Virus record (IMG/VR): IMGVR_UViG_3300034355_000641
Coordinates: 1 to 21,740 of that record
Source: a virus
Direction: 5' to 3' (one strand)
DNA length: 21,740 nt
How positions within the stretch are numbered: the stretch's first letter is position 1; the number at the start of each line of letters is the position of its first letter. The position numbers were made by a program, and so were the translations under genes. The notes under the pieces were generated by a model that saw only the letters and a list, made by a program, of their open reading frames with translations, ran no database searches and had not been told where the DNA came from. Below are positions 2,676 to 19,001 of the stretch, piece by piece.

Positions 2676-4530
2676 TATAGGCACCCTAGTCGTCAAAATG
2701 GCGGCGGACTCGGCGCAGATGCGCTCCGAGATCGACAAGATGCAGCGCCAGATGAAAACGTCCGGCGATGCCGTCGCGGCGCTGAATAAGTCGCTCAAAA
2801 TGGTCGGCGGTGCGGTCCTCGCGGCGTTCAGCGTCGGCCAGGTGGTCGCCTTCGCGGGGCGCTGCATCGAGGCAGCGGACGCACTCCAGGACATGAGCGA
2901 CAAGCTCGGGATGTCCGCGGCGCAGCTAAACCTCCTACAGCTTGCGGCAACGCAGTCGGGCGGCTCTGTCGACGGTGTCAATACTGCGCTGACCAAGATG
3001 TCATCGACTCTCGGCGATGCGGTCAACGGTCAAAAGGAAGCCTCAAAGGCCTTCGCTTCGCTGAACCTAAACGCCGCCGAGCTTGCACAACTCGCGCCCG
3101 ACCAGGCCTTTATTCGGATTTCGGATGCGCTTGCGGGAATTGAGAACCCGTACCAACGCGCCGCCGCTGCCCAGGACATCTTCGGCAAGGGTGCGAAGGA
3201 CATCGCGGGCCTTTTAGCCGAGGGCAGCTCGGGCATCAACGAAGTCGGCGCTCGCCTCGAGGAGATGGGTGCAAAGCTGACCGACCTCGACATCTCGCGA
3301 ATCGCCCAGATGAAGGATGAGGCCGCGTTCGTCGGGACCGCATTCCAAAACCTTGCGACCGTGATGATCTCGAATGCATCACCCGCGATGGGTGTCCTCC
3401 TCGATAGCTTCTCGAATCTGATGAAAACATTCGGAGGCGCCGACCAAGCGGGCCGCTACTTTGGCATCACCGTAGTCGCGCTGATCAAGGCCGTCGAGGC
3501 GCTCGCGCAGACGGTGATCGCGGTGTTCGAGCAGATCCGAGGAGTTTTGATCGGTATCGGCGCCGGGGCGCTTGACATTGTCGGGATTTTTTCCGACGGC
3601 GCTCGCCAGATGGCAAGTGCGTGGACCGCATCCGCAAATAGCGCGCTTGCGAATTCCGAGCGAGCCGCAGGCGCCGCTCTCCAGGCCGGGCGTGACGTCT
3701 TCAATGCCGCGACAATCTTCGACGAGAAAGCGCGGAAGATGGAAGAGCGAGCCGCTGCCGCCGCCGCGAAGATCACCAGCGTCGTCGGGCCGACAGGACC
3801 GGGTGAGAAGACCGCAGCCGAGCGTCGCATGGAAGGCGTCGACGGTCGACAGCAAGGCCTCGACCTGACGAGCATGATGACCGATCAGCAGATGATCGAG
3901 GCGCTCAAGGTTCAACACTACGGAAACCTCGAGACCTTGCAGTCGGATCACATTCAACGGGTGGTCGATCAAGCGGCGTGGCAGTACAGCACGATGGGGC
4001 AGCTCGCGCAGCTATTCGGTATCGAATACCAAGACCTACAGACGCAGCAATACGACCAGGAAATGACCCTCCGCGAGTCTCTGTTCTCGGCGGGAACCGC
4101 GATCATGGGCGCGCTTTTTGCGTCCGACAAAAAGTTCGCGATCGCCCAGGCGCTCATCTCGACTTACGCAGGCGCCGCTCGGGCATACAAGGACGTCCCG
4201 TATCCGGCAAACATCGCGGCCGTCGCGAGCATCATCGCGTCCGGTTTGAAGCAAGTCGCGCAGATTCGCAAGACGCAGCCCGGCAGCTCTTCGGGTGGCT
4301 CTGCGGGGAGCGCTGGGGTGAGCAGCTCCGCGGCAATGCCGCGCGAGACACCGGGCCTGCAACAGCAGCAACCCTCGCGAATCGCCCAGGTCGTCGTCCA
4401 GGGCAGCGTCTTTTCGAGCCGAGAGACCGCCGACTGGCTGATCGGTCAGCTCTCCGAGGCGATCAATGACCGCGACGTCGTCTTCATCAACGGCAACAGC
4501 CGGCAAGCCGGACTCATCGGGGGCACCTAA
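2668..4530 (+). CDS. Tail tape measure protein
   Basis: A 620-residue Ala-rich, largely helical protein directly after the G/GT chaperones, the standard place for the tape measure. The N-terminus 'MADIGTLVVKMAADSAQMRSEIDKMQRQM' is a typical tape-measure coiled coil. Hydrophobic stretches lie at about residues 46-66 and in the central region, the usual membrane-active parts, and the C-terminal part is Gly/Ser-rich with a poly-Gln patch. Using the known rule of thumb of about 0.15 nm of tail per residue, the tail would be near 90 nm, short to medium for a siphovirus. The start overlaps the previous gene by eight bases; the stop TAA overlaps the next ATG by one. Confidence 0.92.
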   Translation: MADIGTLVVKMAADSAQMRSEIDKMQRQMKTSGDAVAALNKSLKMVGGAVLAAFSVGQVVAFAGRCIEAADALQDMSDKLGMSAAQLNLLQLAATQSGGSVDGVNTALTKMSSTLGDAVNGQKEASKAFASLNLNAAELAQLAPDQAFIRISDALAGIENPYQRAAAAQDIFGKGAKDIAGLLAEGSSGINEVGARLEEMGAKLTDLDISRIAQMKDEAAFVGTAFQNLATVMISNASPAMGVLLDSFSNLMKTFGGADQAGRYFGITVVALIKAVEALAQTVIAVFEQIRGVLIGIGAGALDIVGIFSDGARQMASAWTASANSALANSERAAGAALQAGRDVFNAATIFDEKARKMEERAAAAAAKITSVVGPTGPGEKTAAERRMEGVDGRQQGLDLTSMMTDQQMIEALKVQHYGNLETLQSDHIQRVVDQAAWQYSTMGQLAQLFGIEYQDLQTQQYDQEMTLRESLFSAGTAIMGALFASDKKFAIAQALISTYAGAARAYKDVPYPANIAAVASIIASGLKQVAQIRKTQPGSSSGGSAGSAGVSSSAAMPRETPGLQQQQPSRIAQVVVQGSVFSSRETADWLIGQLSEAINDRDVVFINGNSRQAGLIGGT

Positions 4531-4952
4531 TGACCGCAGTCGTCTACACCGCAAAGCGTTCCGTCATCGCCGGGCATAGCTCCGGCGATCAGTATTCGCT
4601 AAATCTCCGCGTCGTCGAGGCCGGTCTCGCGATCGGGCGCAAGGTTGGCTCCGAGGTTCAGCGGACGCTCTCCGACAAAACCGAGACGCTCTATTACTAC
4701 GGGAAGATGACCTGGTCAGTCTCCGCAATGGTAACAAGTTCGAGCGAGCTCGCCGCGCTCCAGGAGTTCCTGCATTCCGTCGAGGCCCAGGAGAGCTTCA
4801 CGTTCTCACCGTATGGCACCGCCGCGTCGCTCGGGACGACCTACACCGTTCGCCGTGTCCAGGCGAACTACTCCCTCGAGCGACAAGACGGGACCGGCAG
4901 CTCGCCGAGCGAGGATGCGATGCGCGTCACCTTTGACCTCGAGGAGGCCTGA
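4530..4952 (+). CDS. Putative minor tail / distal tail protein
   Basis: A 140-residue, beta-rich protein between the tape measure and the hub/fibre gene, which is where distal tail or lambda gpM/gpL-type tip proteins are found. Segments such as 'TETLYYYGKMTWSVSAMVTSSSELAALQEFLHS' and 'MRVTFDLEEA' fit a beta-barrel tip protein, but I do not recognise a specific family. The TAATG overlap upstream and the one-base overlap with the next ATG (TGATG, 4950-4954) place it in the same translationally coupled tail-tip block. Confidence 0.6.
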   Translation: MTAVVYTAKRSVIAGHSSGDQYSLNLRVVEAGLAIGRKVGSEVQRTLSDKTETLYYYGKMTWSVSAMVTSSSELAALQEFLHSVEAQESFTFSPYGTAASLGTTYTVRRVQANYSLERQDGTGSSPSEDAMRVTFDLEEA

Positions 4953-7900
4953 TGCGTACCGACGGCGAAGTCTTCAACGTACTCAATACGTCCTCGGTCA
5001 AGGAGCCGCGGTTCGTAGTCAAGATCGAGTACCCCGTCGATTCGATCTACATCACCTCGCACAGCGGCATCGCCGACGTGCCTGGAACCGTCCTGCAAGG
5101 CGCGCTCCAGGAACCGTCCATCGTCTCGCAGCGATTGAACCCGATCGAGGGCCGCAGCGAGATCGGCTCCGCGTCGTTCTCCGTCGTCGACGTCGGCGCG
5201 GAGTTCACAACAGAGATCCGCGAACGACTCAACGATGACGTCGGTCTCCGTCAGCGCCAGGTGCGCTTCTACCTGGGCTACGCCGGGCTCTCGTTCAACG
5301 ACTTCGTCATGGTCGGAACGCAACAGGTCACCCAGGCGGCCTACGACCGCGGGCGCTACTCGATCTCCTGCGCGGACGTTCAGCGCTCCGCAAAGAAGGA
5401 CATCTTTTCGCTTGCCGAGACAACCCTCGCGCAGTCTTTAAGCGCGACGGACACGACCGTCTACGTCAGCTCGACGAGCGGCTTCTCGACTGTGTATCAC
5501 GGCTCCAGCTATTCGGACGCCGCGAACTCGACCGTCGGCTACATCAAGATCCGCGACGAGGTCATCCGCTACACCGGCAAGACCGCGACAACTTTCACCG
5601 GGTGCACTCGTGGCGTCCTCGGGACGATCGCGAGCAAGTACGACGTCGACGCCGCAACACCATCCGCGCGTCGCGAGAAGGTCTCGGAGCACGTCTACCT
5701 CGAGCTCCCGGCCGTCAAGCTCGCCTATGCCATCCTCACCGGCACTCTCTACGGCGACAACGCAACTCTCCCGTCGACCTGGCATCTCGGAATCAGCGCG
5801 GCTCTGATCCGTCTCGCGGACTACACCGGCATCGGCTCGGATATATGGGACGGCGCGGACCAAGGCGTCATCGTTCGATTTGAAGGTCTAAAGAAAACCG
5901 ACGGCAAGAAGTTCCTCGAGGAGGAAATCTGTCGCCTGCTCGGGATGTTCATGCCGGTCTATGCCGACGGCGCGCTCGGGCTCAAGCGAGCGGCGCGCGT
6001 TCTATCGGACGCGGGAACCGTCGCAACGCTCGACGAATCGAACTCGATCCAGGTCGGCGAGCTCACGCACGACATGGAAGACGTCCACAATGTCTTCCGC
6101 ATCTCCTGGAACTGGACCGGCTCCGACTACTCCCGCACGACCTCGCTGATCGACGCGACGTCCGTCGCTATTCACGGCCGTGCGGACCCTCTCGATCTCA
6201 AGTTCAAGGGACTCTACGGCGGACGCGCGACCGACTCGCTGCTCTTTCAGCTTGTCGATTCTCTGCGTGATCGCTACGCCTCACCGCCGGAGCGGATGTC
6301 CGTCACGGTCGTCCATTCGCTGAACAAGCTCGAGGTCGGTGACGTCGTCCGCGTGAAGTACGCGAGCGTCCGCGACTTCTCCGGGACTGGCTCGAGCATC
6401 GACCGCGCGTTCGAGATCCAAAATATCTCCGTCAATCACCGCACCGGCCAGGTGCAGCTCGAGCTCTTCGGCTCGACCTCTCCGGCCTCCGCGCTCTCGC
6501 CGACGACGGCGACGACCGCACTCCCGGACGCCTTCTACACCGCAACCGGAACGCCGCTCTCGAGCGTCGCAACGATCACCGCAGGCGTGATGGCTGTCGG
6601 AACCTATTCGCTCGCAGGCGGCGCCGACATGACGGCCGCGGGTTCGATCTGGTATCACAACGGCGACCTCACGATTCCGCAAGGGTGCACGATCAATATC
6701 AGCGGGAACGTGCAGCTCCGCGTGAAGGGCTACCTGACGATCAACGGAACCATCAACGGCACCGGCGGCGGATTGCCAGGCGTCGCGGACGACACCAACC
6801 CGCAGACCTCAACGCTTGGGAATCCTGGCTGGGTCGGCAACTCGCGCGGCTGGGATGGCATCGACGCACACGCGGCCTACAAGTCAGGCAACCCGAAGCT
6901 CCTCACGCTCCCGGTTCCCGTCACGCAGGGGAAACACGCGAGCTTCCCGTACCTCCAGCTCCAAGTCTCGGGAAACGCTCTGACCGGAATCCCGACTGAT
7001 CTGCGCGGTACAGGCGGCGGTCCTGGCGGCAGCATTTTGAGCGGAAACAAAGTAGATTTTCGCGCCGCTGGCGGTACAGGCGCCGCAGGAGGCGCGGGCC
7101 TCTGCACAGTATCGCGCGGGTTTTCGACCGGCGCGTCGGCGACGATCAACTTGTCCGGCAACTCGTCGGTCATGCCGCCGATGCACAACGCGAACCCGAA
7201 CAAATACTACCCCGGCGCTGGTGGCGCGGGCGGTCCGGGTTCGATGCTTCTGCTCCTCGATGGCTCGGCCGTTTCGGCACCGGATCTCACGAACCGATTC
7301 GTCGCGAACACCGGCGCGGTCCCAATCGCGCAGCCCTATCTCGGCTTCCTGACGTTCCTCGATAACGAGGGGCTCAAAAGATACGACGACAACGAAGACC
7401 CCTGGGCGGGCTATGCCGACCCCGCAGTAATCTCCGAGCGATCTCTCGCGGGCTCGTGCCTTCGCATCCAATTCGTCCCGGCGCCGGAGACCGCAACAGC
7501 CGACCAGGACAGCAAGCCTCCTGCGATCGGCGTCCTCACCGCAAGCGCCCAGGATGGCTTTGCGCTTATCGCCTGGACGCTTCCAAACGATCCCGCCTCT
7601 TATGACTCGGTCGAGCTCTACGCCTCGATCACAAACGATCGCGGCACCGCGACGAAGATCTTCGACGGTCGCGCGTCCGACTTTCAGCACGTTACGAACG
7701 ACACCTCCGCGCGCTACTACTGGATCAGGACTCGCCGCGCTCGCGTTCGCTCTGACTGGTATCCGAACACGACCTCGAGCTCGGTGACAATCGCCGCGAA
7801 ACCGCCGACCCTGGTCGGCTACCTTACGAACGAAGCGGTCACCGTACCGGCAGACTCCGCCGGGACTGTCAGCTCCTTCGCGACTGCGGTCGGCGACTTT

Positions 7901-10216
7901 AAGGTTTTTGTCGGCACGACGGACGTCACCAACGTCTGCACGTTCTCGATCCTGGGACAGACCAACGTCACCGCCTCGATCAACGCTTCGACCGGCGCGT
8001 ACTCGGTGAGCGCGATGTCCGCCGACACCGGCTCGGTCGCCTTCCGCGCGACTTACGCCGGGAGCTACTCGATCGACAAGGTGTTCTCCGTCACAAAGGC
8101 GCGGCAGGGCAACAACGGCACCAACGGGATCAACGGCACCAACGGCACCAACGGGACGAACGGTGTCGATGCCGTCAACATTCAGCTCTCGAAGAGCTCC
8201 TTCCAGCTCAACGCCTACGCGGACGGCACCGTTCCAGACTTCTCGGGCGCTGACGGTACGCTGAAGGTTTACCAGGGAGCGACCGATGTCACAGCCTCGG
8301 CGACGCTTTCGGCGACCGCGGGCTCCGGTGTCACCGGCTCGATCAATACTGCAACGAACTCGCCGGTCAGCGGTCAGCCGAAGGGCTACTATCGCATCAC
8401 GGCGCTCTCGGTCGATGTCGGGACTCTGACTCTGTCGGCGGTCTATAACGGCGTCACCTACACCGCGACCTTCGCTGTCTCAAAGAACAAAATCGGCTAC
8501 GAGATCGTCAGCTCGCTTCCATCGACGAACCTCTTCGTCGGCCGGATGGCATTCCTGACGACGGACTCGAAGCTGTACCGCTACACCGCCTCCGGCTGGA
8601 CGACTGCGGTCCCAGCGGTCGATATTTCCGGGCAGCTTCAGGACGCGCAAGTCTCCGCGCTCGCCGCCTCGAAAATTACCGGGCAGCTCTCCGACGCACA
8701 GATTCAAGCGGTCGCGGCGGCGAAGGTATCCGGGCAGCTTACGAACGCGCAGCTCCAAGATATTGCAGCTACAAAGATCACCGGCCAGCTTACAAACGCA
8801 CAGCTCGAAGCGATCGCGTCGACGAAAATCACCGGCCAGCTTACAAACTCGCAGATCGAATCCATCACAGCGGCAAAGCTCACCGGGCAGATCGTCGGAA
8901 CGCAGATCACAGACGGCGCAATAAGCACCGCAAAAATTGCCGCGGGTGCAATTACCGCCAACGAGATCGCAGCCGATACGATCACCGCAGCGAACATCGC
9001 AGCGGGCGCCGTTACGGCTTCGGAAATCTCGGCGGGTGCGGTCACGACTGCAAAGCTCGCAGCAGGCGCGGTCACCGCGAACGAGATCGCCGCCAATGCG
9101 ATCACCGCGGGAAAGATTTCAGCCGGTGCTATAGAGACAGCAAAAATCGCCGCCGGAGCAGTAACCGCGAACGAGATCGGCGCGAACGCGATCACAGCAG
9201 TAAAGATCTCCGCCGGAGCGATTGAGACCGCAAAGATCGCAGCCGGGGCGGTCACAGCCGACACGATTGCGGCCAACGCTATCACCGCTGCGAAGATTTC
9301 CGCTGGAGCGGTCGAGACGGCAAAGCTCGCCGCCGGAGCGGTGACCGCGGAAAAAATCACCGCGTCGACAATTACCGGCGACAAGATCGCCGCGAACGCA
9401 ATCACGGCGACGAACATCGCTGCGAATGCTGTCACCGCCGACAAGATTTCCGCGGGCTCGATCACGGCCGCGAAGATCTCGGTCACCGACCTCTCGAGCA
9501 TCACGGCAAACATCGGAACGCTCACCGCAGGAACGATCCGCAACTCCGCGGACAGCTTCCGCGTCGACGTCACCAACGGTCGCACGATCACGACGACCGG
9601 CTCCTACATGAAGGTCACCGGCGCGCCGTTCGGAAGCACCTCGCAGTTCATCGAATGGTACGGGCCGTACTTCGCAAGCCTCTCGAGCTGCACCGAGGCG
9701 AACGCGACCTACTACCTCAAGACAAACGGCTCCGCCTATTTCGGCGGAACACTCTCGGCGGGCACTCTTACAAACCGCGGGGAGACGAGCGACCTCTCGG
9801 CGACTGCACAGATCACCGTCGGTCCGTTCGGCACCAATGGCGACCCGAAGGTCGTCACGGTCAGCTATGCGTACAGCGGGAACTGGACGCAAATGCAAGG
9901 CTCGTCGACTGGCACCGGGAGCGGCTCAATCTCGGCCACGGTCAAGCTCTACCGAAAGATCGGCAGCGGAGCAGAGACCGAGGTTGCAACCCTAAACGTC
10001 ACAGGGAGCTGGTCTTATGAGACCGACAGCGAGCCGTATCCGGGCAATCTCTACGCGCGAATCTGGACTCAAAACATGAGCGGCTCGGCGAGTTACACCG
10101 ACAACGACGCGAGCCTTTCGGATCGCACCTATCGCGCCGCAATCACGGCGCGGTCGATTCAGTTCAGCTCTGGCAACAACAGCCAGAGGGTGTCCATTGT
10201 GAGTGTCGAGGAATAG
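4952..10216 (+). CDS. Giant tail hub/fibre protein with internal repeat shaft
   Basis: A 1754-residue protein that appears to fuse tail hub and fibre. Residues about 1-520 look like a hub/tip-attachment module. About 560-780 is Gly-rich with a short parallel-beta pattern (around 'ISGNVQLRVKGYLTINGTI'). About 855-945 resembles a fibronectin III domain. Two similar beta-sandwich domains (about 949-1050 and 1073-1185) flank a collagen-like run of seven Gly-X-Y triplets, mostly Gly-Thr-Asn (1053-1073). Residues 1225-1309 are five 17-residue repeats of the ITGQLTNAQ type, 1319-1510 are nineteen 10-residue repeats of the IAAGAVTANE type, and the C-terminal ~240 residues form the probable receptor-binding tip. 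Function as host-recognition fibre at the tail end is inferred from architecture and position; no chaperone gene for it was recognised. Confidence 0.85.
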   Translation: MRTDGEVFNVLNTSSVKEPRFVVKIEYPVDSIYITSHSGIADVPGTVLQGALQEPSIVSQRLNPIEGRSEIGSASFSVVDVGAEFTTEIRERLNDDVGLRQRQVRFYLGYAGLSFNDFVMVGTQQVTQAAYDRGRYSISCADVQRSAKKDIFSLAETTLAQSLSATDTTVYVSSTSGFSTVYHGSSYSDAANSTVGYIKIRDEVIRYTGKTATTFTGCTRGVLGTIASKYDVDAATPSARREKVSEHVYLELPAVKLAYAILTGTLYGDNATLPSTWHLGISAALIRLADYTGIGSDIWDGADQGVIVRFEGLKKTDGKKFLEEEICRLLGMFMPVYADGALGLKRAARVLSDAGTVATLDESNSIQVGELTHDMEDVHNVFRISWNWTGSDYSRTTSLIDATSVAIHGRADPLDLKFKGLYGGRATDSLLFQLVDSLRDRYASPPERMSVTVVHSLNKLEVGDVVRVKYASVRDFSGTGSSIDRAFEIQNISVNHRTGQVQLELFGSTSPASALSPTTATTALPDAFYTATGTPLSSVATITAGVMAVGTYSLAGGADMTAAGSIWYHNGDLTIPQGCTINISGNVQLRVKGYLTINGTINGTGGGLPGVADDTNPQTSTLGNPGWVGNSRGWDGIDAHAAYKSGNPKLLTLPVPVTQGKHASFPYLQLQVSGNALTGIPTDLRGTGGGPGGSILSGNKVDFRAAGGTGAAGGAGLCTVSRGFSTGASATINLSGNSSVMPPMHNANPNKYYPGAGGAGGPGSMLLLLDGSAVSAPDLTNRFVANTGAVPIAQPYLGFLTFLDNEGLKRYDDNEDPWAGYADPAVISERSLAGSCLRIQFVPAPETATADQDSKPPAIGVLTASAQDGFALIAWTLPNDPASYDSVELYASITNDRGTATKIFDGRASDFQHVTNDTSARYYWIRTRRARVRSDWYPNTTSSSVTIAAKPPTLVGYLTNEAVTVPADSAGTVSSFATAVGDFKVFVGTTDVTNVCTFSILGQTNVTASINASTGAYSVSAMSADTGSVAFRATYAGSYSIDKVFSVTKARQGNNGTNGINGTNGTNGTNGVDAVNIQLSKSSFQLNAYADGTVPDFSGADGTLKVYQGATDVTASATLSATAGSGVTGSINTATNSPVSGQPKGYYRITALSVDVGTLTLSAVYNGVTYTATFAVSKNKIGYEIVSSLPSTNLFVGRMAFLTTDSKLYRYTASGWTTAVPAVDISGQLQDAQVSALAASKITGQLSDAQIQAVAAAKVSGQLTNAQLQDIAATKITGQLTNAQLEAIASTKITGQLTNSQIESITAAKLTGQIVGTQITDGAISTAKIAAGAITANEIAADTITAANIAAGAVTASEISAGAVTTAKLAAGAVTANEIAANAITAGKISAGAIETAKIAAGAVTANEIGANAITAVKISAGAIETAKIAAGAVTADTIAANAITAAKISAGAVETAKLAAGAVTAEKITASTITGDKIAANAITATNIAANAVTADKISAGSITAAKISVTDLSSITANIGTLTAGTIRNSADSFRVDVTNGRTITTTGSYMKVTGAPFGSTSQFIEWYGPYFASLSSCTEANATYYLKTNGSAYFGGTLSAGTLTNRGETSDLSATAQITVGPFGTNGDPKVVTVSYAYSGNWTQMQGSSTGTGSGSISATVKLYRKIGSGAETEVATLNVTGSWSYETDSEPYPGNLYARIWTQNMSGSASYTDNDASLSDRTYRAAITARSIQFSSGNNSQRVSIVSVEE
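8624..9481 (+). repeat. Coding repeats of the fibre shaft (17-aa then 10-aa units)
   Basis: Within the fibre gene, five consecutive 51-bp units (8624-8878) encode 17-residue repeats with a conserved GQL..AQ core. A 27-bp partial unit follows, then nineteen 30-bp units (8906-9475) encoding decapeptides with alternating Ile/Val at fixed positions. Part of the decapeptide block shows a 30-residue superperiod: IAAGAVTANE, IAANAITAGK, ISAGAIETAK recur in the same order three times around 9059-9328. This points to trimeric shaft structure and to expansion by unequal crossing-over. Confidence 0.9.
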
Positions 10217-13287: not shown

Positions 13288-13456
13288 CTACCTGACGTCC
13301 GAATGTGTCGTCCCGGAACGATCGCTCCAGACGAACGGAGACCTCGCCAGGGCGTACCTCGATGCGACCGAATGCCTCGACGAGGCAAACCTCAAGCTCC
13401 GCTCTGTGCGCTCCCTGGCGAGCTGTAGGCTAGGCCGCGAGCAGCTTGGAAAATAA
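13181..13456 (+). CDS. Rz1-like outer-membrane spanin lipoprotein
   Basis: A 91-residue protein in the +1 frame relative to Rz, starting inside Rz (107 bases of overlap) and running 169 bases beyond it. The N-terminus has basic residues (positions 3-8), a hydrophobic stretch and a lipobox 'SLTGC' with Cys21 as lipidation site. The mature part has a short Pro-containing segment ('CPPIPDYL') and several more cysteines. Overlapped Rz/Rz1 architecture plus lipobox identifies the o-spanin. Its last 27 bases overlap, tail to tail, the 3' end of the serine integrase gene on the other strand. Confidence 0.85.
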   Translation: MPRRPTRRAAIGLSILSLTGCAGRSVIVETCPPIPDYLTSECVVPERSLQTNGDLARAYLDATECLDEANLKLRSVRSLASCRLGREQLGK

Positions 13457-15025
13457 GGGCGGACCGCCTCGAACAAGTGGTACCATTTCATAATAAGGAA
13501 GCGAGCCCCCGCTACCATTCTGTGAAACACCCGCCGCTCGCATGAGCGGCGCGGTATTCACAGCGACAGCAGCGACCAGGACTCCAGCCTCGGGACGGCA
13601 CACAACGTCCCCGAGCAGCTCGTGAACCGCAGCTCGAGCTCGAGCCGCCGGTCCCTGCAAAGCCTCTCGCATATTCTCGACCGCCTGCCGATACGCCTCC
13701 TCGGCGACCGCCTGGTCGACGTTCGACCTCGAGTTCGCCTTCCGCCAGGACTTCGCCAGCAGGGCTCGACGGCGCTCCAGGAGCGCGGCTACCGAGGGCG
13801 CGATGTCCTCCCGGTCGAGTATCCCTTGGGATACTTGCGCCTCGAGCTTGGCAATCCGGCGATCAAGCTCCTCGAGCTCTGCCGGGCGCGTCGACTCCGT
13901 GCGTTCATCCCGCCGCCATTGGCGGATCATTGCGACCGCCAGCTCGACCGCGTCGCTCGAGAGGAGCTGTTTTGTAATCGGCTCGAGCAGCTTCTCCTCG
14001 GCAACGTCCCGCCTGGCGCCGATCGCCATCGAGCAGGCCGAGTCGCCTCCCTGGTGCCGGGTGCCGCAGTAGTACCAGGAACCGTTCGCGCCGGTCGCGA
14101 CCAACTTCCCGCCACATTCCCCGCAGACCAGAATCCCCGAGAGGATGTACTTCGGACCGCGACCTTTCGTTCCATTGTGGAACTTTCTCGGCGTCGCCAG
14201 GGCGCGAACCTTCTCCCAGGTCTCGAGCTCAACGATCGCCGGACCTTCGGTCACGATCCATTCCGACTCCGGTCGCTCGACGCGCTGACGCTTGCCGGTG
14301 TCTGGGTCTCGCTTCCAGATCGAGCGATTCCACACAACCCGGCCAATGTAGCGATCGTTCCCGAGCATCGAGTGAATCGCCGAGACGAGCCACATACCGT
14401 CCGATCGGCGAGCCTTTCGCTCCCAGGTCGAGCCCGGTGACGGCACTCCGCGTCGGTTCAGATCCGACACGATCGCCTTCATTGCCTCACCTCGAGCTGC
14501 GCGGTCAAAAACCTCGCGCACGATCGAGGCCTCCGCCTCGATGATCTCTCCCGCCTTCGAGTACCCGTAACACTTCCCGCCAGTCGCCTTTCCCTGGCGC
14601 GCTCTCATATCGAGCGCCGAGTGAGTTCTCGAGGCAATCTGCGCGCGGAACTCTTCGGACATAATCCCGGAGAGACCCGCCTGCATCCTGGCGGTGCGAC
14701 TGTCAGAGTCGAAACCGTCCAGGACGCCGACGACGCGGATGCCGCGGTGACGTAACCGAGTGAGAAGCGGCGCAAGATCCTGGGAACGCGAAAGGCGCGT
14801 AGTGTCGACGACCAGGAGAACATCGCCTCGCTCGAGCTCGGCGAGCGCCTTCTGAACGCCTGGTCGATTGCCGATCGCAGCGCCGGAGATACCCTCGTCC
14901 GTGTACTCGGCGGCGATCTTTAATCCGTGATTTTTCGCGTAGTCGCGACACCGACGGAGCTGATCGAGAATCGTCGACTCCGTCTGATGTTCGGTCGAAT
15001 ACCGGGCGTAGATAATTGCGCGCAT
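13430..15025 (-). CDS. Large serine integrase (site-specific recombinase)
   Basis: A 531-residue large serine recombinase. The resolvase domain (about 2-145) has 'YARYSTEHQ' with Arg8 and the nucleophile Ser10. A recombinase domain follows (about 155-275), then a zinc ribbon with 'LVCGECGG' and the later 'YYCGTRHQGGDSAC' cysteines (about 300-335), then a coiled-coil region (about 370-440). It should catalyse attP x attB integration through a phosphoserine intermediate. An AAGGTGA site precedes the ATG. It is the last gene of the minus-strand early operon. The last ~25 residues are atypical in composition, and the 3' end overlaps Rz1 by 27 bases. No terminator separates the convergent genes. 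Confidence 0.93.
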   Translation of the reverse strand: MRAIIYARYSTEHQTESTILDQLRRCRDYAKNHGLKIAAEYTDEGISGAAIGNRPGVQKALAELERGDVLLVVDTTRLSRSQDLAPLLTRLRHRGIRVVGVLDGFDSDSRTARMQAGLSGIMSEEFRAQIASRTHSALDMRARQGKATGGKCYGYSKAGEIIEAEASIVREVFDRAARGEAMKAIVSDLNRRGVPSPGSTWERKARRSDGMWLVSAIHSMLGNDRYIGRVVWNRSIWKRDPDTGKRQRVERPESEWIVTEGPAIVELETWEKVRALATPRKFHNGTKGRGPKYILSGILVCGECGGKLVATGANGSWYYCGTRHQGGDSACSMAIGARRDVAEEKLLEPITKQLLSSDAVELAVAMIRQWRRDERTESTRPAELEELDRRIAKLEAQVSQGILDREDIAPSVAALLERRRALLAKSWRKANSRSNVDQAVAEEAYRQAVENMREALQGPAARARAAVHELLGDVVCRPEAGVLVAAVAVNTAPLMRAAGVSQNGSGGSLPYYEMVPLVRGGPPLFSKLLAA

Positions 15026-15034
15026 TGCGTCACC

Positions 15035-15157
15035 TTATGATGACAGGCGGCTCTCGATCAACTTCTGCTCATCCTGGGGCGGCGGAGGCGCGTCCCGGAG
15101 CTCCTGATAGGCGGCTCGAGCGAGCAGCTCGACAAGCTCTCGAAGGGCGGGATTCAT
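15035..15157 (-). CDS. Small ORF upstream of the integrase (40 aa)
   Basis: A 40-residue ORF starting at ATG 15157 and ending at TAA 15037-15035, nine bases before the integrase ATG. GGAG lies seven bases upstream of the start (15165-15168 on the plus strand). The protein starts 'MNPALRELVELLARAAYQEL', an amphipathic helix, followed by four prolines and an acidic helix. The good ribosome site and spacing make it a real gene candidate. Small proteins beside serine integrases are sometimes directionality factors, but those are usually larger, so the role is unknown; coupling to integrase translation is an alternative. Confidence 0.6.
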   Translation of the reverse strand: MNPALRELVELLARAAYQELRDAPPPPQDEQKLIESRLSS

Positions 15158-15197
15158 TTCAGTACTCCGTCGTCCATGCCTTGAATTTCTCGCGTAC

Positions 15198-15413
15198 CCG
15201 ATGCCGACCTTGCCGTGTCATTCCAAGCCCTTCCCAAATGTCCATGCCTAGCCGCGCCGTGCACCACCGAGCCCTGCCATGCCTAGCCAAGCCGAGCCAT
15301 GCCGATCCCGGCCAAAATTTCCTTGCCGCGCCTAGCCGTGCCTGGCCGCGCCGTTCCCAGCCGAGCCCTGCCGAGCCCCGCCGTGCCAAGCCTTAACATC
15401 CAAACCCTGCCAC
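15198..15413 (-). repeat. Two-level pentanucleotide array (NNGGC units, 79-nt superunit)
   Basis: On the plus strand the stretch reads as GCCNN pentamers; on the transcribed minus strand, NNGGC. Block A (15241-15315) and block B (15320-15394) each hold exactly 15 pentamers, each followed by a 4-nt break (AATT 15316-15319, AACA 15395-15398), giving a 79-nt unit. A third block starts at 15399 and is cut after three pentamers by the upstream gene's stop. Another break (AATG) lies at 15237-15240, before which pentamers continue degenerately to about 15198. Of 33 well-phased pentamers, 25 have GCC, 5 TCC, 2 ACC and 1 GCA at the fixed positions. The first pentamer after each break is always TCC. 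The dinucleotides differ between blocks, so this is not simple recent duplication. Other than a TTG-initiated frame it holds no convincing gene. Confidence 0.9.
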
Positions 15414-15414
15414 G

Positions 15415-16032
15415 TTATGCGGCGATTTTTAGTTCCCGTTTAATTTCATCGAAACGCTCAACCGTAAATCTGCCGTATCGAGGCCGATAATCACCGAGGC
15501 CGATGAACGCACCAGCGTCCGACAGCCAACGATGCAGCGCAGCGGCGTCAGCGACGACCTCATTTGATGCCGACACTTCAAACGTAATGCGCCAATCGTG
15601 AAAAATCGGGCGGGTTCGCATGACGCGCGCTTGACCTACACGAACGCCGACCGTCAAGCGAAAGAACGGATCGGCACACATCTCATCGACGGTCTTTCCG
15701 GCACCGGCAAAAGACAGCGCGCCGTCTGTTTCAACAAACACGCCAGAAAGCGCTTGCTTGCCTTCTTTGCTCCGCGTCGCGCCTTTTGCGATCACCGCCT
15801 CGAGAATGCGGCTCGGAATCATCGGCGCGCCATTTGCGTCTACATAAAGCCCGCCTTTCCACTCGATGTCCGCCATCGCGGCAAGATCGGCGTCTGTCTT
15901 TTTTCGTTTAGACGAGACCGCCTTCATCGCTTTTGAGAATGGATTGAGGGGGTCCGCTAACTGCCCGTTGTGCATAACGAGCGGAGACAGGCCGGAAATC
16001 GTTGCGCTGAAGAACCGATAACCTATCGACAT
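15415..16032 (-). CDS. Phage protein with RAMP/Cas7-like features, next to the array
   Basis: A 205-residue protein; ATG at 16032 with GGAG seven bases upstream. I recognise it as a recurrent uncharacterised phage protein. The N-terminal strand 'FFSATISGLSPLVMHNGQ' (7-24) leads into a basic helix (33-45). 'GAPMIPSRILEAVIAKGATR' (68-87) recalls the 'IPGSSLKG' motif of Cas7/Csm3-type RAMPs, and the C-terminus has a Gly-rich loop 'GLGDYRPRYGRF' (178-189) like RAMP G-loops. These would suggest an RRM-type RNA-binding fold. That is eye-level motif similarity, not a proven homology. The stop codon lies two bases from the pentanucleotide array, which therefore forms the 3' UTR of this gene's message. 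The upstream HNH ORF overlaps it by 125 bases. Confidence 0.7.
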   Translation of the reverse strand: MSIGYRFFSATISGLSPLVMHNGQLADPLNPFSKAMKAVSSKRKKTDADLAAMADIEWKGGLYVDANGAPMIPSRILEAVIAKGATRSKEGKQALSGVFVETDGALSFAGAGKTVDEMCADPFFRLTVGVRVGQARVMRTRPIFHDWRITFEVSASNEVVADAAALHRWLSDAGAFIGLGDYRPRYGRFTVERFDEIKRELKIAA

Positions 16033-16393
16033 TTGATAACTCCATACCCACCAGGGGCGTCAGATTTTTGCGCGCTGTTTCAATGCGGCCGGGTCGCGCG
16101 ACTTTTTCCCGGACGCAATCAATCATCGGAGCCGGTCGCTCCTGTCGAAGTCGCGATGTAATCGCCTCGTGGCATTGGCGGCACAGCACAACGACGTCGG
16201 CAAGAGATTCGGAACCGAATGTCTCGTAGTGCCGGTGATGCAACTCAAGCCCGTAGCCAGTAGCGGCGGACGCAGGGCAGCAGCGACATTCAAAATTTGC
16301 CGCGGCGAGCGCTTCATCGCGCAAGCGCGACCAATGGCTCGGCGCTGGATGCTCGGATGAGGGGCGCTTTGTTAATCGACCCGCAATCTTCAC
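15908..16393 (-). CDS. HNH endonuclease
   Basis: A 161-residue protein from a GTG start (16393-16391) overlapping the previous stop in GTGA. The HNH/zinc module spans about residues 34-80: 'FECRCC' (Cys36, Cys38/39), 'LELHHRHYETFG' (His52, His53), then 'VVLCRQCHEAI' (Cys71, Cys74, His75). Family members cut DNA with a beta-beta-alpha metal finger. The last 41 residues overlap the start of the RAMP-like gene in another frame and have unremarkable composition, so either the true protein functions without them or a frameshift extended the ORF. In-operon partners could be the recombination genes upstream or the array/RAMP-like pair downstream. Confidence 0.8.
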   Translation of the reverse strand: MKIAGRLTKRPSSEHPAPSHWSRLRDEALAAANFECRCCPASAATGYGLELHHRHYETFGSESLADVVVLCRQCHEAITSRLRQERPAPMIDCVREKVARPGRIETARKNLTPLVGMELSNVDRLSVLQRNDFRPVSARYAQRAVSGPPQSILKSDEGGLV

Positions 16394-16626
16394 GCGGCCT
16401 TCTCCACGATCTCGACATAAGCGTCGAGCTTGTCTTCAGCGATCCCGAGCTGCAAAGAAAGAAGCTTTTTCTGTAGCTCACCGACGGCCTTCTGCAACTC
16501 GTCGCGCTCCTCAACGAGTAGCTTCACTCGAGAGGCGAGCGCCTGCGAGAGATCGCTTGCGTCGGGGATCGCGGAGACGTGACCGACAATCTCAAGATCA
16601 GACATCAAAGAATAAAATCCAGACAT
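16390..16626 (-). CDS. Hypothetical coiled-coil protein
   Basis: With ATG at 16626, 78 residues; an in-frame ATG at 16683 (97 residues) is possible but gives a Pro-rich start, and neither has a strong ribosome site. The centre, about residues 28-60 ('ASRVKLLVEERDELQKAVGELQKKLLSLQ'), is a clear heptad coiled coil, so it probably self-associates. No family recognised. It overlaps the HNH start by four bases (GTGA), in the early operon. Confidence 0.62.
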   Translation of the reverse strand: MSGFYSLMSDLEIVGHVSAIPDASDLSQALASRVKLLVEERDELQKAVGELQKKLLSLQLGIAEDKLDAYVEIVEKAA

Positions 16627-16692
16627 AACTGTTCCGGCTTGCACGACGGGGCCGGGCTCCGTTGGGGGGTGTGACGCGCGCATCGTCGATGA

Positions 16693-16917
16693 CTACATGA
16701 CGAGCTCGAATCCAGGGAGCACCGGCTGTGCAACGCGATACCGCGCAAACTTTTTCCCGTTCCTGGTCTCGGTGACGGTCTCGATGTCCATGCCTTCGGC
16801 GCGCAGCTCTGCAACTCGAGCGGCCAGGCGAAAGCACCCGAACTGATCGAGCGCTGTGAGCGGCGTTAGCTCGATTCCAGAGAGCAGCGCGGCGCGGATC
16901 TGTTCCGTTTGTGTCAC
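16693..16917 (-). CDS. Small helix-turn-helix protein
   Basis: A 74-residue protein starting at GTG 16917 (GTGA overlap with the preceding gene). The pattern 'LSGIELTPLTALDQFGCFRLAARVAELRAEG' followed by a beta wing 'ETRNGKKFARYRV' is that of the small winged-helix proteins often found in phage early operons. It may bind DNA, but its target is unknown. A 66-base gap without a clear signal separates it from the next gene. Confidence 0.72.
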   Translation of the reverse strand: MTQTEQIRAALLSGIELTPLTALDQFGCFRLAARVAELRAEGMDIETVTETRNGKKFARYRVAQPVLPGFELVM

Positions 16918-17096
16918 GACAACACCTCCCGATTCATCTCGAGTTCTCTGCGGCGCGCGTTCAACTCGGTCAGCGTCGACTCGATGACCGCGTCGAACTT
17001 GCCGAGGGCGTAGGCGGTGCGAACGACCTCGGCGACAAGCTGACGCGAGCTCGCCTGGTCGGCCATCGCGACAAGGTTCTCGAGGGCGGTGTTCAT
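16914..17096 (-). CDS. Hypothetical protein (60 aa)
   Basis: A 60-residue helical ORF from ATG 17096, which overlaps the stop of the RecT-type gene (ATGA). The sequence 'MNTALENLVAMADQASSRQ' and the heptad-like remainder suggest a small all-helical protein. The frame stays open further upstream, but that extension lies antiparallel in frame over the RecT gene and is disregarded. No family recognised. Confidence 0.6.
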   Translation of the reverse strand: MNTALENLVAMADQASSRQLVAEVVRTAYALGKFDAVIESTLTELNARRRELEMNREVLS

Positions 17097-17806
17097 GCTG
17101 CGACCTCCTGCGGCTCGACGACGATCGCCTCGAGCTCCGCCTTCCTGGCGTCCTTCGCGTAGTTCAGCGACTCCTCGAGCTCGCGATCCTTTGACTTCCT
17201 GGCGAGCACTACCGAATCGCGGAAGCGAGTCTTCAGCGTCTCGAGATCCGGTGCCTCGCGTACCAGGTGAACCGGATCGGCGAGCGGCGGCTCCTGGGCG
17301 ACGACTGTCGCGCTCGAGCTCGAGATCGTCATGTCCTGGACCTCTTCGGAGGTGTAGACGCCGACGGCAACACCAGGGAACACAGCGCGAACGCCTTCGG
17401 AGATCACGCGAGCGCGGAGCATCTGTCGCGGGTACTGACGCCAGGTCGCGTTTTTTGTGAGCCCAGCGCGTTCGGCCATCTGGAAGGTCCAGCGGATCTC
17501 GACCGTCCCGCCTTGCGGGTGCGACACCTTCGCGGCGACCGCCTGATCGGTGTATTCGATCCACTCGATCTTTCCGCCGTTCGCCTGGAATCGAGCGAGC
17601 AGAGCGTCGCTCTTCAGCGAGGGTCGTCCCTGGATGATGTGATAGTCGCGCGCGGCGATCGCTGGGTGCAGGCCTTCCGCCTGGGCGATCAGCATCAAAG
17701 ACATCGCCTGGTCGGGTGTACGGACTCCAAAGAGCCCAGACTTCGCGACCGCCGTCGCCATCTTCTCGATGTCCGTCACGCTGACGGATTGAATCGCTGT
17801 CGTCAT
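17093..17806 (-). CDS. RecT-family single-strand annealing protein
   Basis: A 237-residue protein; the ATG at 17806 is chosen because GGAGAAGG lies just upstream, and the longer open frame has a basic extension that overlaps the exonuclease gene. The block 'LMLIAQAEGLHPAIAARDYHIIQGRPSLKSDALLARF' and 'RWTFQMAERAGL' with 'WRQYPRQMLRARVISEGVRAVFPGV' are the recognisable core of RecT-type recombinases, which anneal complementary single strands after exonuclease resection. The variable acidic C-terminus is also typical. It pairs with the YqaJ-type nuclease directly upstream, as exo and bet do in lambda. Confidence 0.85.
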   Translation of the reverse strand: MTTAIQSVSVTDIEKMATAVAKSGLFGVRTPDQAMSLMLIAQAEGLHPAIAARDYHIIQGRPSLKSDALLARFQANGGKIEWIEYTDQAVAAKVSHPQGGTVEIRWTFQMAERAGLTKNATWRQYPRQMLRARVISEGVRAVFPGVAVGVYTSEEVQDMTISSSSATVVAQEPPLADPVHLVREAPDLETLKTRFRDSVVLARKSKDRELEESLNYAKDARKAELEAIVVEPQEVAA

Positions 17807-18450
17807 GCTGCCTTCTCCCTTAATTGGCGCTCGAGGTCGTCCACCTCGGCGAGAAACTGTCGGACCTCGAGGTCCAGGTTCGCAATGAAGACGTCGTCGC
17901 GCTCGACGTGCTCGATGTAGAGCTGGTGTGATTTCGGAAAACGCGGGTCGTAGCTGCAAAACAGCGCGCGCTTGCGACCCGTTATCCAGAGCTGGCCTTG
18001 CACCTGTGCTCTGTGCTCATGCGGCATCCCGTACAACCAGGTCTCGGCGTGTACGATGCTCGATGGACATTTGAATTCGACGACGGATGCGTTGGGGTCC
18101 GAGTCACTTCCGATGAGACCGTCGGGAGACGCTCCACACATCAACGACGGGTGACGGTGGAATCCGGTCTCGCGCACCTCGACGCCGAGCTTGAACTCAA
18201 GCTCGATGCGCGCGCCTGGCTCCTGGTCAATTCCCCATTGCATCGCCGCGGTGGTGAAGTGTGGCGTCGGCTGGCCGGTGAGGCGCTCGGTGACCAGCTC
18301 GATCGCGTAGTCGATGCGAGCCTGCGCCGGTGCGCCTTTCGTTTCGTCTTTCTTTGGCTTTAGCCTGGCGAGCGCGTGCTTAAAACGAGAGGCGCTGCAA
18401 AGTCCGAGGCGGGCCGCGAACCACTCCGCGGATCGTTGCTGTTCCATCAT
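17803..18450 (-). CDS. YqaJ/lambda-exonuclease-type recombination nuclease
   Basis: A 215-residue protein of the YqaJ viral recombinase family. Signature elements: 'WFAARLGLCSASRF' near the N-terminus, a 'GIDQEPGARIE' glutamate, 'GASPDGLIG' with the metal-binding Asp, 'VVEFKCPSS' with the catalytic E-x-K, and 'AQVQGQLWITG' with the conserved Gln. It should degrade the 5' strand of double-stranded ends processively to feed the annealing protein. Two ATGs are possible (18450 and 18447) behind AGGAGG; the second has the better spacing. It overlaps neighbours by four bases on both sides. Confidence 0.9.
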   Translation of the reverse strand: MMEQQRSAEWFAARLGLCSASRFKHALARLKPKKDETKGAPAQARIDYAIELVTERLTGQPTPHFTTAAMQWGIDQEPGARIELEFKLGVEVRETGFHRHPSLMCGASPDGLIGSDSDPNASVVEFKCPSSIVHAETWLYGMPHEHRAQVQGQLWITGRKRALFCSYDPRFPKSHQLYIEHVERDDVFIANLDLEVRQFLAEVDDLERQLREKAA

Positions 18451-18683
18451 GCGGCCTCCTTCGGCGCTCGATGGATGAGCTGCCGTCCGCCGTGCAACGT
18501 CGAGAGCGCAAGGCCCGATGCGCTCAATGCGCGGATGAGCTCACCGAGCGGAACCTCCGGGTCGAGCTCCATGCGGACAACAGGAGGCGGGGCGTCACGC
18601 TCGATCCCTCGGACGAACTCGGCCACCGCTCTCGTATCGCGCGGGTCGATGTACTCAACCGAGCTCACAGCGGCACCTGCCAT
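18447..18683 (-). CDS. Hypothetical protein (78 aa)
   Basis: A 78-residue ORF from ATG 18683, lying partly within the preceding small membrane protein gene (19-base overlap) and ending on the exonuclease start. The N-terminal half ('EYIDPRDTRAVAEFVRGIERD') is acidic, the C-terminal half short and hydrophobic. No ribosome site is visible, so translation is probably coupled to the upstream gene. No family recognised. Confidence 0.6.
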   Translation of the reverse strand: MAGAAVSSVEYIDPRDTRAVAEFVRGIERDAPPPVVRMELDPEVPLGELIRALSASGLALSTLHGGRQLIHRAPKEAA

Positions 18684-18865
18684 TGACGGCCGCGGCGCTG
18701 CGAGCGGACGTTCGGGCCAGGCAGAAGCTCCCGGCGGCGACGGTTACGTCGGCGCGTCTCGATCAGATTGAGGAGATACTCGACGATCCCGCCGAACACG
18801 GCGAAGACGCCGAAGACGACCAAAATGGCCGAAAACGCGATGATCCCGTCGATTGCTGTGTCCAT
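18665..18865 (-). CDS. Small membrane protein, first gene of the left early operon
   Basis: A 66-residue protein from ATG 18865, with GGGAGG four bases upstream. One hydrophobic segment at about residues 6-28 ('GIIAFSAILVVFGVFAVFGGIV') is followed by a strongly basic run 'RRRNRRRRE', giving a single-pass protein with a cytoplasmic basic tail. First genes of left operons are often host-takeover, exclusion or antitermination functions; none can be assigned here. The stop codon lies inside the next gene. Confidence 0.7.
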   Translation of the reverse strand: MDTAIDGIIAFSAILVVFGVFAVFGGIVEYLLNLIETRRRNRRRRELLPGPNVRSQRRGRQWQVPL

Positions 18866-18909
18866 GTAACCTCCCAAGTCAGGGGCCGCGAACTGCGGCT
18901 TCCTGGGGA

Positions 18910-18938
18910 GTATTACCGGGTGGTACTTATTAAGTCAA
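18910..18938 (-). promoter_or_regulatory. Left early promoter PL
   Basis: On the minus strand a -35 TTGACT (18938-18933) and a -10 TAATAC (18915-18910) are separated by exactly 17 bases. The operator at 18911-18928 fills the spacer and the -10, so a bound repressor would block it. The start site would be near 18903, giving a leader of about 38 bases to the ATG at 18865. All minus-strand genes down to 13430 are read from it, with no visible terminator. Confidence 0.82.
18911..18928. promoter_or_regulatory. Left operator (ACC-N4-GGT palindrome)
   Basis: Half-sites TATTACC and GGTACTT flank a 4-bp GGGT centre. The ACC-N4-GGT core matches the two operators between repressor and cro. A lone half-site GGTAATG follows at 18947-18953. 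Confidence 0.7.
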
Positions 18939-19001
18939 CAACAGACGGTAATGGTTGACTAAAAGGTTATTGCGGGATAGCGGCTACCAGGCCAGGCGGA
19001 C

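Follow-up and report, generated by a model that had tools for sequence, protein, structure and literature searches.

A phased pentanucleotide array beside a phage vipr gene, interpreted as a VIPR guide array

Genes at the locus

The window analysed here is the whole 21,740-nt stretch of viral DNA in IMG/VR record IMGVR_UViG_3300034355_000641, and the feature under study is a pentanucleotide array first delimited at 15198–15413. The array begins right after the stop codon of a minus-strand gene (15415–16032) that encodes a 205-aa Vipr protein of the RAMP family. VIPR is an RNA-guided DNA-recognition system first reported in a 2026 preprint, the main text of which describes it as consisting of the RAMP protein Vipr and of vrRNAs built from 9–16 YNNGG repeats, found in phages and prophages, and proposes it as a CRISPR ancestor (PMC13142463). 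The identification of our gene is supported both by homology and by fold. Its product shares 35% identity over 193 aa with the candidate Vipr CDS of phage SUSP1 (E 4e-38) and matches PDB entry 36pp ('SUSP1 Vipr protein') (E 1.7e-29 when the sequence is used alone, 1.5e-56 when its family profile is used). It belongs to phrog_4652 (E 5e-53), which is a family without a name, and neither NCBIfam nor PADLOC holds a model for the Vipr family. The AlphaFold2 model (pLDDT 95) finds its nearest folds among the Csm3/Cas7 RAMPs, with Z 12.0 and an rmsd of 4.2 over 168 residues against Csm3 6ifl_F, and the protein is a single-RRM RAMP homologous to a known Vipr. This adjoining gene, which accounts for the array, was overlooked in the first reading of the sequence.

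A second minus-strand gene (15908–16393), recognised by PHROGs and by a sub-threshold Pfam match, encodes a 161-aa HNH endonuclease and overlaps the 5' end of vipr. The association of the two genes is a frequent one: of the 147 collected loci that have enough upstream sequence, 89 (about 60%) carry an HNH homolog in the same orientation as vipr and no more than 900 nt upstream of it. The HNH gene is present in all four members of the clade to which the window belongs (see below), where the CxxC, LHHRHY and LCxxCH residues are invariant. It is a candidate Vipr-accessory gene (vap), and for this VIPR branch we regard the HNH protein as the foremost accessory candidate.

On the other side of the array, a serine integrase gene (13430–15025, minus strand) forms part of the context and lies outside the VIPR system. 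Together with the genes for an S24 repressor, RecT and a YqaJ exonuclease, it places the locus in a temperate phage or a prophage. Between the array and the integrase gene there is a 40-aa reading frame (MNPALRELVELL...) at 15035–15157 on the minus strand. Comparison of positions 14400–19000 with the related locus L002 revealed identity over approximately 14.4–17.0 kb, covering the integrase end, the array, vipr and the HNH gene, and divergence of up to about 30% at 18.0–18.4 kb, in the RecT and YqaJ genes; this distribution suggests that the VIPR-integrase block was exchanged as a module in recent times. The phage records searched contained no near relative of the window, and the tape-measure and integrase matches were too distant to name a host. 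Elsewhere in the window, strong tandem repeats of 51, 90 and 102 nt occupy positions 8670–9349 within an ORF of 1754 aa (4952–10216) that probably encodes a repetitive tail protein.

Structure of the array

The recount of 15198–15413 reproduced the composition given in the original prediction exactly: 33 plus-strand pentamers (25 GCC, 5 TCC, 2 ACC and 1 GCA) grouped as 15 + 15 + 3, with two full 15-unit blocks and three 4-nt breaks at 15237, 15316 and 15395 (AATG, AATT and AACA). The 5-nt phase is equally real. On the minus strand GG recurs at every fifth position up to 15 times in a row, on the plus strand no more than 4 times, and none of 2000 shuffles of the 216-base segment that preserved its dinucleotides produced a run above 8; GG pairs spaced 5 apart number 32, compared with 10.4 ± 2.8 in the shuffles, whose maximum was 21. 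While the trinucleotide count on the plus strand stood, the natural unit is better described on the minus, transcribed strand, where it is YNNGG and the array takes the form [YNNGG]n interrupted by 4-nt linkers of the type RNNT, represented here by ATGT, AAAT, ACAT and AATT.

Starting from the vipr end, the array opens with a leader (15396–15414) made of CGTGG CAGGG TTTGG and the linker ATGT, which resembles the leader of the related locus L003 (TGCGG TAGGG TTTGG TTCGG + ACAT). It is followed by vrRNA block 1 (15321–15395) with 15 YNNGG units, the NN series of which is AA TT AC GG TC AG TC TG AC GC CA AC TA GC AA; by the linker AAAT (15317–15320); and by vrRNA block 2 (15242–15316), also of 15 units, one of them being TGGTG, with the series TT CG TC AT TC TT TA AT AG TC GG AC GC TA AT. 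In these two blocks GG is kept in 29 of the 30 units. After the linker ACAT (15238–15241) comes a third block of 10 units (15188–15237) which, with its linker AATT, occupies 15184–15237; it is in register and degenerate, GG standing at the expected place in 6 of the 10 units, and it is probably a decayed vrRNA. Two final units, CAAGG and CATGG (15174–15183), mark the end, so that the array found at 15198–15413 is genuine over that interval and its extent was underestimated, since it continues to about 15174. All these elements lie on the minus strand. When decoded with one base skipped between successive NN pairs, the predicted target of block 1 reads AANTTNACNGGNTCNAGNTCNTGNACNGCNCANACNTANGCNAA and that of block 2 TTNCGNTCNATNTCNTTNTANATNAGNTCNGGNACNGCNTANAT. 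RNA folding of the array gave z = -1.44, i.e., no unusual structure and no sign of a hidden tail hairpin, and the tRNA search found none.

The array had been judged to be neither a CRISPR nor a microsatellite nor a gene, and our data support this judgement. CRISPR-Cas was considered and rejected, the array having no long direct repeat and the genes scanned nearby being phage genes; PADLOC applied to three genes yielded zero cas matches. Translation deserves separate discussion, since a plus-strand ORF of 126 aa (15016–15396) covers part of the array and might be taken to specify a real product containing a low-complexity repeat. Every 5-nt unit, however, shifts the reading frame, the 5n+4 lengths of the blocks differ between relatives, and it is the GG that is conserved and not the codons. 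We consequently give this explanation practically no weight.

Arrays, linkers and tails in related loci

The comparison covered 151 vipr loci, 71 of them in genomes of bacteria and archaea and 80 in viral contigs, an array being called wherever an uninterrupted GG-every-5 run of at least 6 was present. Such runs lie on the vipr strand in 49 of the 71 genome loci and 66 of the 80 viral loci (115 of 151 together), whereas on the opposite strand there were 0 in either set. The absence of a phased array from most relatives with the same neighbouring genes had been named as the outcome that would make the regularity accidental; relatives with a neighbouring vipr mostly carry such an array on the same strand, as the window itself does. 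In 237 interior units of the window clade the two N positions carry 0.07 and 0.02 bits and the two G positions about 1.4 bits each, and the window's tracts of 15 + 15 units show the conserved GGY and hypervariable NN described for vrRNA tracts of about 9–16 YNNGG units. The claim of a fixed trinucleotide next to a free dinucleotide is borne out by these values, and the idea that the format is kept by selection and not by copying was the right one. The same is seen in a pairwise comparison: the Vipr proteins of the window and of L003 are 79% identical, yet their guides are unrelated while the format is identical, which indicates that guides turn over and the format stays. Two departures from the general pattern were encountered among the relatives. 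At L004 (positions 4596–4970), where Vipr is 48% identical to that of the window, the GG-every-5 tracts form a variant consensus in which A nearly always replaces the pyrimidine as third base (GGANN). At L043 and L045, both at position 3588, Azospirillum oryzae and A. soli share nearly the same guide, against the usual rapid turnover.

Arrays of short protein-binding sites do occur in phages, and the location of our array between vipr and the serine integrase gene might suggest a structural or regulatory repeat independent of vipr, such as a terminator, an attP arm or a set of protein-binding sites serving the integrase. In the many genomes and phages compared, however, the arrays track vipr and not the integrase, always on the vipr strand; the NN positions are free, unlike those of binding-site repeats; and the Rfam scan returned zero families at gathering thresholds. 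An origin of this kind is very improbable.

The window and the loci L001–L003, L101 and L102 share a layout in which consecutive guides are separated by only 4 nt, a gap absent from all the other fetched loci. The four distinct Vipr proteins encoded by these loci form a single clade (support 99/97). The linker is RNNT in all 23 of the parsed junctions, and the blocks comprise 9–15 units, setting aside one shorter tract and the leaders, which corresponds to a pitch of 49–79 nt and always to 5n+4. The exact 79-nt higher-order period of the original prediction therefore holds only for the two intact blocks of the window, the invariant being 5n+4.

Many other relatives (e.g., L006, L018 and L107) possess a hairpin tail after a GGGTG-like end, and an invariable structured 3' tail behind every repeat tract is part of the description of type II; in the window clade the next guide follows after 4 nt and this tail is absent. 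Its absence bears on the VIPR type and not on membership in VIPR overall, given that the main text of the preprint describes several architectures of the array besides that of type II (PMC13142463). Family-wide, 250 of 370 tracts (68%) have a purine directly behind their final GG, compared with 465 of 3992 interior units (12%) behind theirs, and such a purine generally marks where a repeat tract ends. In view of this purine the RNNT linker has the look of a remnant of the tail seen in other relatives, keeping its opening bases without the hairpin. Within the clade a bias is seen on both sides of the linker, towards YRA in the unit before it and towards A at N1 in the unit that follows, and owing to these biases the outermost NN pairs of each block may not belong to the guide. 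A clade without tails makes it testable how Vipr recognises the end of its guide.

Targets, interpretation and known systems

Targets of the window's guides were sought in IMG/VR with exact skip-1 cores of 10, 11, 9 and 9 NN and then with two 8-NN cores followed by extension; these gave either no matches or matches that failed outside the seed, at 19–22/30, in unrelated genes. This is not surprising for an uncultivated phage. To test the code on a relative, we took a 12-NN guide of L057 (P. juntendi), which under the skip-1 rule has matches in 10 of 249 Pseudomonas genomes at up to 3 mismatches. Five of these matches (at most 2 mismatches) fall at the same site and in codon phase, the skipped base coinciding with the wobble position, within one gene family of about 100 aa; the predicted target genomes are G062 (L198), G166 (L192), G177 (L197), G201 (L191) and G205 (L194), and the family member tested (L194) belongs to phrog_12894, which has no assigned function. 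The reversed pattern and skip-2 each gave 0 matches and skip-0 gave two, both at 3 mismatches. The L057 guide thus obeys the 1-nt-skip rule, providing an independent check of this code on a relative's guide. As the vipr gene of L057 has no adjoining HNH homolog, this support covers the Vipr family and not the HNH branch specifically. Among HNH-type relatives, the guides of L029 (Methylobacterium) and L059 (Bradyrhizobium) had zero targets in their own genera, and that of L045, searched in four genomes only, had two sites with 2 mismatches. An all-against-all guide/target search within the collected loci (about 2.2 Mb, both strands) found matches of at least 85% for 5 guides under skip-1 versus 1 and 1 in the comparisons, a weak excess in a target space that is too small.

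The lack of targets in the search with the window's own guides, taken together with the degenerate third block and the missing tail structure, might be understood as signs of a degraded or inactive VIPR locus, in which the protein gene is intact and the array is a relic without working guides. The retention of GG in all but one unit of blocks 1 and 2 is at odds with such decay, as is the fact that L002 and the window have vipr, the HNH gene and the array in identical form although their recombination genes have diverged; moreover, the unrelated guides that L003 holds in the same format show that arrays turn over and get renewed. A relic seems unlikely to us, though less so than either of the explanations discussed above.

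The array is best explained as the set of vrRNA guides of a VIPR system encoded by the phage, and we put the probability of this at about 0.95. This explanation rests on the homology and the RAMP fold of Vipr, on the phased arrays found on the same strand in relatives with GGY kept and NN free, on the RNNT linker at every parsed junction, on the monophyly of the 4-nt-gap layout and on the skip-1 match of the L057 guide. The locus may accordingly be viewed as a VIPR guide array rediscovered independently, from raw sequence.

The system might operate as follows. Transcription of the minus strand probably runs from the HNH and vipr genes on through the array, and processing of the transcript would make each 15-unit YNNGG block one guide. 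Vipr monomers would line this RNA, each of them gripping the GGY of one unit and leaving NN exposed. Pairing with the target DNA would be through the NN dinucleotides, and as each is set off from the next by a single unread base, a 15-unit guide could specify about 30 of 45 target bases. The RNNT linker, in which a purine replaces the usual post-GG pyrimidine, would end one guide and reset the phase for the next. Guide binding may shut down a gene belonging to a rival phage or mobile element, and with the HNH protein the target may also be nicked or cut. We advance only tentatively, at rather less than even odds, the extended proposal of a VIPR sub-type without guide tails, in which guides stand back to back on one transcript, the RNNT phase reset both ends and starts them, and the HNH protein converts phage-versus-phage silencing into target cutting.

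The closest described system is the VIPR of Escherichia phage SUSP1, at whose locus vrRNAs have been reported (PMC13142463). Like the window, it is phage-borne and combines a homologous Vipr (35%) with same-strand GGY/NN arrays of 9–16 units per guide; in the SUSP1 record itself, GG-every-5 tracts of the YNNGG type flank the vipr gene. The two differ in that the SUSP1 vrRNAs are about 100 nt long with a structured 3' tail, whereas the window's next guide starts 4 nt on, and in the accessory gene, which is HNH here, while the type II vaps are, according to the preprint's main text, predicted DNA-binding proteins (PMC13142463). The same text mentions VIPR types with nuclease accessory genes linked to target destruction, as well as 'staggered arrays with overlapping vrRNAs' (PMC13142463). 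A nuclease-type accessory and a compact multi-guide array are what our locus has in common with the types carrying nuclease/helicase vaps or staggered arrays, and, likened by description only, its layout is possibly the same architecture; the tail-less layout may already be known under the name of staggered arrays. Compared with the main text of the preprint, the tail-less layout, the RNNT linkers and the HNH partner may add to the published knowledge of VIPR, and the window locus is possibly an unusual VIPR sub-architecture. In the preprint, the vrRNA is matched to DNA through its NN pairs, with a single base passed over from one pair to the next (PMC13142463). Class 1 CRISPR-Cas effectors are also close, in that their Csm3/Cas7 backbone RAMPs have the same fold as Vipr and line a guide RNA whose pairing is periodically disrupted. 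The window differs from those systems in having no CRISPR repeats and, as far as the genes scanned around the array go, no cas genes, and, whereas a CRISPR spacer is continuous, the guide information of VIPR resides in two of every five bases.
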